DNA of 64,000 bases from Actinobacillus suis ATCC 33415. Its GTDB lineage: Bacteria; Pseudomonadota; Gammaproteobacteria; Enterobacterales; Pasteurellaceae. Below are positions 10,841 to 10,996 of the stretch, piece after piece. Position 1 is the stretch's first letter. Every line of letters starts with the position of its first letter. The DNA lies in NCBI RefSeq assembly GCF_000739435.1, contig NZ_CP009159.1:1240001-1304000 (forward strand), read 5' to 3'. The translations under genes and the position numbers were made by a program. The notes beneath the pieces were generated by a model. It saw only the letters and a list, made by a program, of their open reading frames with translations, searched no databases and had not been told where the DNA came from.

Positions 10841-10996
10841 TTAATGTTTGCTTCTACAAGATCTACACCAACTTTGATTTGTAGCCCCATTCGGAACATT
10901 ACGAAAACCAAATTTTTGCTCTAATTCTTGATGGGTTTTAGCTGTTACACTTTTACATTTTGGACACGTGTGAGGAAGATTTACTGTACCACTCAT
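10841..10996 (-). CDS. 51-residue putative zinc-ribbon protein inside the groE operon
   Basis: This short gene fills almost all of the space between groES and groEL. The product starts [20 protein letters not shown] and carries two Cys pairs, CPKC at 11-14 and CRSC at 44-47, the spacing expected of a single zinc ribbon, with FGFRN between them. I do not recognise a function. Evidence that it is real: GGAG lies six bases before its ATG, it starts 12 bases after groES stops and ends 20 bases before groEL starts, and the two Cys pairs are in frame with the operon layout. It would be co-induced with GroESL by heat shock. Zinc- or redox-linked roles are possible but unsupported. Confidence 0.82.

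Follow-up and report, generated by a model that had tools for sequence, protein, structure and literature searches.

A small zinc-finger-like gene between groES and groEL of Actinobacillus suis ATCC 33415, a probable member of a mobile, defence-associated family

Why does a gene of 51 codons stand between groES and groEL in the chaperonin operon of Actinobacillus suis ATCC 33415, and what might its product do? The locus lies in a stretch of 64,000 nucleotides (contig NZ_CP009159.1, positions 1,240,001 to 1,304,000 of the forward strand), called the window below. An earlier note, made from the letters alone, had described a zinc-ribbon gene here and had taken it for a heat-shock co-induced zinc or redox protein of the chaperonin operon. 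Our analysis leads elsewhere. Capture of a mobile gene by the groE operon is well supported, and on balance, with a little better than even confidence, we regard the gene as a captured member of a mobile, defence-associated family of basic, four-Cys zinc fingers of about 50 residues, which would serve as an accessory of anti-phage or anti-plasmid defence and would be co-expressed with groE.

The 51-residue open reading frame (ORF) was confirmed as a real gene with the exact coordinates 10841..10996 (ZnR, for its treble-clef-like zinc finger). It starts with ATG and has 51 codons on the minus strand, as do groES (11009..11299; Pfam Cpn10, E 1e-27) and groEL (9177..10820; Pfam Cpn60_TCP1, E 2.4e-74). 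Twelve nt (10997-11008) separate it from groES and hold its own GGAG ribosome-binding site (11003..11006, minus strand, read from the sequence), and 20 nt (10821-10840) separate it from groEL; gaps and ribosome site were thus read exactly where they had been proposed. On the plus strand, frame 1 of 10841-10996 has a stop codon inside. When the 188-nt groES-groEL spacer was shuffled by single bases, an ORF of at least 51 codons arose by chance in 127 of 20,000 shuffles, so that ORF length alone is modest evidence for a gene. The decisive evidence is homology, and the frame proposed earlier is borne out by its homologues and by the purifying selection (low family dN/dS, the ratio of nonsynonymous to synonymous change) acting on them.

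A Pasteurella multocida protein, carried by 115 contigs, is 80% identical (E 2.2e-22). A search with the single sequence returned six proteins, the window protein included, and a profile of 33 members reached 486 protein clusters at E<=1e-3; the figures on conservation, charge and precomputed domains given here rest on the best 120 of these 486 cluster representatives. Twelve of the 51 positions never vary among them (H9, C11, C14, A19, F29, G30, R32, Q41, S42, C44, C47 and R48), all four Cys (11/14/44/47) included. The first Cys pair, CPKC (residues 11-14; 10955..10966, minus strand), has His9 before it, and H9, C11 and C14 are invariant; the second, CRSC (residues 44-47; 10856..10867, minus strand), stands between N-Q-S-W and Arg48, with Q41, S42, C44, C47 and R48 invariant. 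Both in-frame pairs pointed out by the earlier note are present and conserved across the family. The window protein carries every family signature residue (H9, C11, C14, F29-G30, R32, Q41-S42, C44, C47, R48), and its net charge of +6 equals the family median (minimum +2).

The family is under purifying selection. The proportion of nonsynonymous differences (pN) was below that of synonymous differences (pS) in 8 of the 8 gene pairs compared, for example pS 0.63 and pN 0.23 between the window copy and genome G105, and pS 0.70 and pN 0.07 between loci L136 and L029. Exceptions are found among looser relatives, namely a Providencia copy without the first Cys pair (L046) and an Alteromonas copy cut short (L050), and in two decayed Pasteurellaceae copies (G057 and G037). 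The 33-row alignment A2 excluded L046 and L050 for these reasons, two copies with a non-ATG start (L035, L041), the near-duplicate viral rows L134, L135, L137 and L140, and copies reached through genome or plasmid searches. A near-neutral hitchhiker, persisting as an insertion between groES and groEL that does no harm, could account for the decay at groE (G057) and behind rpmG (G037) and for the L046 copy without its first Cys pair; selection in every pair compared and the 12 invariant positions argue against such a passenger, and we consider it quite improbable.

Searches of named families gave little. No Pfam or NCBIfam model reaches its cut-off for the window protein, precomputed Pfam domains were found in none of the 120 representatives, and PADLOC gave only noise-level matches on the 33 members. 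Three PHROGs families of unknown function match members at E<=1e-4; among them, phrog_34160 (197 positions) matches all 33 members scanned, and the window protein aligns at its positions 133-174. In phage records the window protein had no match at E<=0.1, and the P. multocida query found 12 records, but only at E 0.5-9. A literature search, mostly without subscription journals, found no paper on the gene or the family.

Is the gene then a partner of the chaperonin? Both groES and groEL were present in 140 of 140 Pasteurellaceae genomes, while the family was found in 11 of them (two with decayed copies only, and decayed or weak matches being counted), belonging to 8 of 43 genera, and in none of the eight congeners. 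Between groES and groEL it occurs in four genomes, intact in the window genome, G105 and G107 and decayed in G057. A conserved component of the groE operon would be present in most relatives, which is not the case at 4 of 140. The earlier note had proposed a survey of Pasteurellaceae for both Cys pairs between the two genes: the pairs are indeed conserved in the family, but the site is occupied in these four genomes only, one of them with a decayed copy. A heat-shock zinc or redox protein working with GroES and GroEL would suit the position in the operon, the tight spacing, the own ribosome site, the sigma-32-like promoter upstream and the intact copies at the same site in two further genomes. 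It is at odds with the 136 of 140 genomes that have both chaperonin genes and no detected family member between them, with the decay of one of the four copies, and with relatives in unrelated places such as plasmids, viruses and defence loci; nothing was found in favour of a redox function. We judge this reading very unlikely; for the small gene, folding is a less likely role than defence or DNA handling.

The remaining Pasteurellaceae copies occupy other places, often with a second small gene, here called X1, in front. Avibacterium paragallinarum has the finger at a nusG-rplK site with a helix-turn-helix (HTH) gene, a transposase-like gene and X1, Conservatibacter flavescens has it at an rpsQ-rplN site with X1, and the decayed copy of G037 lies behind rpmB-rpmG, again with X1; all three are on the same strand as those housekeeping operons. 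The Histophilus somni copy is on the opposite strand, convergent with dnaJ, with HTH gene and X1. Further copies lie near a fabI-like gene in Rodentibacter and near hydrogenase-maturation-like genes in Aggregatibacter kilianii. NusG, L11, S17, L14, DnaJ, L28 and L33 were confirmed with Pfam as neighbours, and the other neighbour names come from reading the sequences.

How did the gene come to this site? In the window, the spacer consists of the gene plus short flanks (12+156+20 nt). In seven of the eight congeners a different sequence of about 63 nt separates groES from groEL, and the eighth (G007) has a longer spacer, again unlike that of the window. In G107, the small gene starts 1 nt past the groES stop codon. 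G105 and G107, two species of one genus, are 91% identical in groES and only 52% in the intervening fingers, members of a family whose proteins change slowly; the contrast points to separate captures at the groES-groEL site, short of proof. The three intact groE copies do not fall together in the tree (43 rows, 53 columns, most of it unresolved); a single clade of the three was not rejected by the approximately unbiased (AU) test (p 0.275), and so short a tree cannot exclude a single origin. Among the congener spacers (L106-L113), L106 has ACAAGCGGT, and L107, L108, L109 and L112 have ATAAGCGGT; each precedes a TTTGCAAA stretch, and the window spacer has none of these. ACAAGCGGT and ATAAGCGGT resemble a Pasteurellaceae DNA uptake signal. 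Pasteurellaceae are naturally competent, and such motifs would offer a route by which a spacer might be replaced through transformation.

The small gene is likely co-expressed with groES and groEL, because neither a terminator-like nor a sigma-70-like site was found when the groES-groEL interval was scanned, and a sigma-32-like promoter lies upstream. This promoter (CTTGAAA-N12-CCCCAAT; 11365..11390, minus strand, found by script match) begins 91 nt ahead of groES and is a good match to the sigma-32 consensus. Heat-shock co-induction of the small gene, as the earlier note had it, is plausible. Between promoter and groES, a 9-pair stem-loop followed by a T-rich run (11332-11353, minus strand) might act in the groE mRNA as an attenuator or as a structured leader. 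Farther upstream of groES (11482-14283, minus strand) are a NUDIX-like gene and two tandem genes for related proteins of about 400 residues (11877-13064 and 13057-14283), named by eye.

The family reaches well beyond Pasteurellaceae. Matches at E<=0.1 were found in 110 of 72,556 plasmid records, a figure that includes decayed or weak matches and HTH fusions; most are enterobacterial, 31 are labelled Escherichia, and 57 are mobilizable. A DNA-level search of E. coli genomes with a 374-base X1-ZnR query gave no match. In 60 plasmid records sampled evenly down the ranking, 29 had no annotated gene at the match, the gene table itself being incomplete. Genome contigs gave 52 loci, the 26 strongest of which are clear matches from Pseudomonadota, Campylobacterota, Fusobacterium, Alkaliphilus, a Chloroflexi metagenome-assembled genome and a thaumarchaeote assembly, with the caution that rows from metagenome-assembled genomes are possibly misbinned. 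Viral contigs gave 13 loci, eight of them strong. In two viral contigs (L139, L140) the finger is on the opposite strand amid terminase- and portal-like genes (names by eye), in a moron-like position.

What do these copies stand beside? For the defence test, 14 of 16 genomes were used; L038, on too short a contig, and L050, itself cut short, had been excluded beforehand, and control regions were taken from the same contigs, centred about 26-40 kb from the gene. The family is enriched beside known defence genes compared with these matched regions: at E<=1e-15, PADLOC matched 96 models from 116 ORFs around the gene versus 8 from 129 control ORFs, the counts being models and not proteins. When ten hand-picked neighbour proteins were mapped singly, seven matched at E<=1e-10, and defence genes were confirmed in 4 of the 14 neighbourhoods (GajA with GajB, HmaB with HmaC, a type II methylase and restriction endonuclease pair, and a further type II methylase). 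A dGTPase match beside L028, maybe a housekeeping gene, was left out of the defence counts. In a plasmid locus, the cyclase and effector of a cyclic-oligonucleotide-based anti-phage signalling system (CBASS) adjoin the finger gene. Campylobacterota have the finger between nuclease-like and methyltransferase genes (L036, L044) or directly behind a D12 methylase-DpnII fusion (L042). The window copy, lying between groES and groEL, is not beside known defence genes, the rest of the window being unscanned for them.

Directly before the finger gene, X1 (about 70-80 codons) was found in 16 of the 48 rows read and another small gene, X2, in two, two places occurring twice among these rows; the gap to the finger gene is -1 to 11 nt. 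The plasmid form of X1 reads MGFW..GK..KGA...SSELK.IIK..GFFGS....AM.ILKERGE. Pfam gave no match for one X1 and one X2, and a single X1 query, run without a positive control, found nothing in the window genome. In some rows, a terminator-like hairpin, seen by eye, follows right behind the finger gene. Relatives of one X1 (L008 1882-2097), 48-49% identical (H107-H112), lie on large Klebsiella plasmids and in two Neisseria gonorrhoeae records that have no gene annotated at that place. Ahead of the X1-finger pair, Rodentibacter and Histophilus (L018/L045, L023, L043) have a small HTH_3 gene, which is read from the other strand; the HTH_3 protein of L018 has a weak likeness to control proteins of restriction-modification (R-M) systems (E 1.1e-5).

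The same neighbours could house an antagonist. The protein might be a plasmid- or phage-borne blocker of host restriction or of another DNA-targeting system, kept after chromosomal capture, which would fit the mobilizable share of the plasmid records, the presence in viral contigs and the adjoining R-M genes, where an antagonist could also reside. Known anti-restriction proteins include acidic DNA mimics, whereas this family is basic, and the L042 and L044 copies form a row with R-M genes, all on one strand, which is odd for an inhibitor. Counter-defence therefore seems to us improbable.

As to what the protein itself would do, the AlphaFold2 model (mean predicted local distance difference test, pLDDT, 80.8; predicted template modelling score, pTM, 0.52) has a helix at 22-28, strands at 31-34 and 37-40 and a helix at 45-49. 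In this prediction a hairpin comes first and a C-terminal helix then bears the second Cys pair, which would be the order of a treble clef, and because of this order the zinc-ribbon fold named earlier is probably wrong. Structural comparison of the model with 27 chains gave no match. Pfam Zn_ribbon_ISL3, DZR_2 and Zn_ribbon_8 scored 14.2-15.5 bits, under their curated cut-offs of 25.5-34.4; a Pfam match to DUF4817 (E 0.006; 16.6 bits, where the cut-off is 22.6) was taken as chance, and a PDB profile search gave nine matches at E 0.018-6.6, three of which, when viewed as alignments, were short helix or Cys stretches. Judged from the Cys pattern, the family protein is probably a zinc binder. The basic charge, the winged-helix fusions and the treble-clef-like model together indicate that it most likely binds nucleic acid, with DNA as first choice.

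The protein might also be a plasmid or phage replication or transcription accessory, a DNA-tethering or polymerase-contacting finger now a passenger on the chromosome. On small plasmids, DnaD_N/HTH_36 proteins have the finger as their C-terminal domain, phrog_34160 matches every member scanned, and in L011 the finger follows a plasmid rep gene at a distance of 13 nt. Genes with NusG, NusG-type (rfaH-like) and NusA domains lie near the finger in three loci (L030, L046, L039), which may be chance or a hint of a link to transcription elongation. Alone, such an accessory leaves unexplained the R-M, Gabija, Hma and CBASS neighbours and the places in chaperonin and ribosomal operons, and we think it unlikely as the full answer.

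We return to the captured defence accessory. The family would spread with plasmids, prophages and defence islands; in the window lineage, a finger gene would have replaced the native groES-groEL spacer and left the operon unbroken, and should therefore be transcribed along with groES and groEL, rising under heat shock and other sigma-32 stress. A strongly expressed, stress-responsive operon would spare the gene the need for its own promoter and keep its expression steady, and the small protein would work alone, as a nucleic-acid-binding accessory of defence against phages or plasmids. A bolder version, that the finger, alone or with X1 or X2, is a minimal, undescribed anti-phage or anti-plasmid module which Pasteurellaceae lodge repeatedly in essential, strongly expressed operons (groES-groEL, nusG-rplK, rpsQ-rplN, behind rpmB-rpmG), so that here a chaperonin promoter drives an immune gene rising under infection stress, is tentative and more likely wrong than right.

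The family matters in any case as a highly conserved one of at least 486 clusters that adjoins known immune systems, while the window protein falls short of the cut-off of every Pfam and NCBIfam model. If it is a true defence or DNA-handling factor, it would be among the smallest at 51 residues. Repeated settlement in operons of the chaperonin and the ribosome would illustrate how easily a mobile gene can gain strong, stress-linked expression. It also cautions against taking every small gene found between groES and groEL for a chaperonin partner.

Among known systems, PD-T7-4 is an anti-phage protein (Vassallo et al. 2022, PMC9519451). Its N-terminal Cys region gave a weak PADLOC match to 7 of the 33 members (best E 0.012, not significant), but its homologues, from 4 of 295 genomes of the order, have no LPHTCP, FGxR or NQSWCR motifs and carry a long extra C-terminal part; kinship was rejected because the motifs differ. 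The zinc domains of HNH and recombination endonuclease VII proteins are treble clefs, and the family resembles them in that about 30 residues lie between the CxxC pairs (CxxC...CxxC); the modelled hairpin, with a helix after it at the second Cys pair, may be a further likeness. The family differs in having the invariant A19, F29, G30, R32, Q41 and S42 between the pairs and no DH/HH catalytic His motif. Closer are the DnaD_N/HTH_36 plasmid proteins (e.g. WP_123906182.1) of about 135 residues, whose last ~45 residues are the same finger with HTCPKC, FGFR and QSWCKDCRG; they have a winged helix in front, whereas the window protein is the finger alone. Probably phrog_34160 is akin to them. Phage morons and the small genes of defence islands are the general kind of short mobile gene. 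The window copy departs from them in its place inside an essential chaperonin operon, where no promoter or terminator of its own was seen, but the family resembles them: its gene is short and brings its own ribosome site, some loci show a terminator-like hairpin behind it, and it occurs on plasmids, in viral contigs and in islands.
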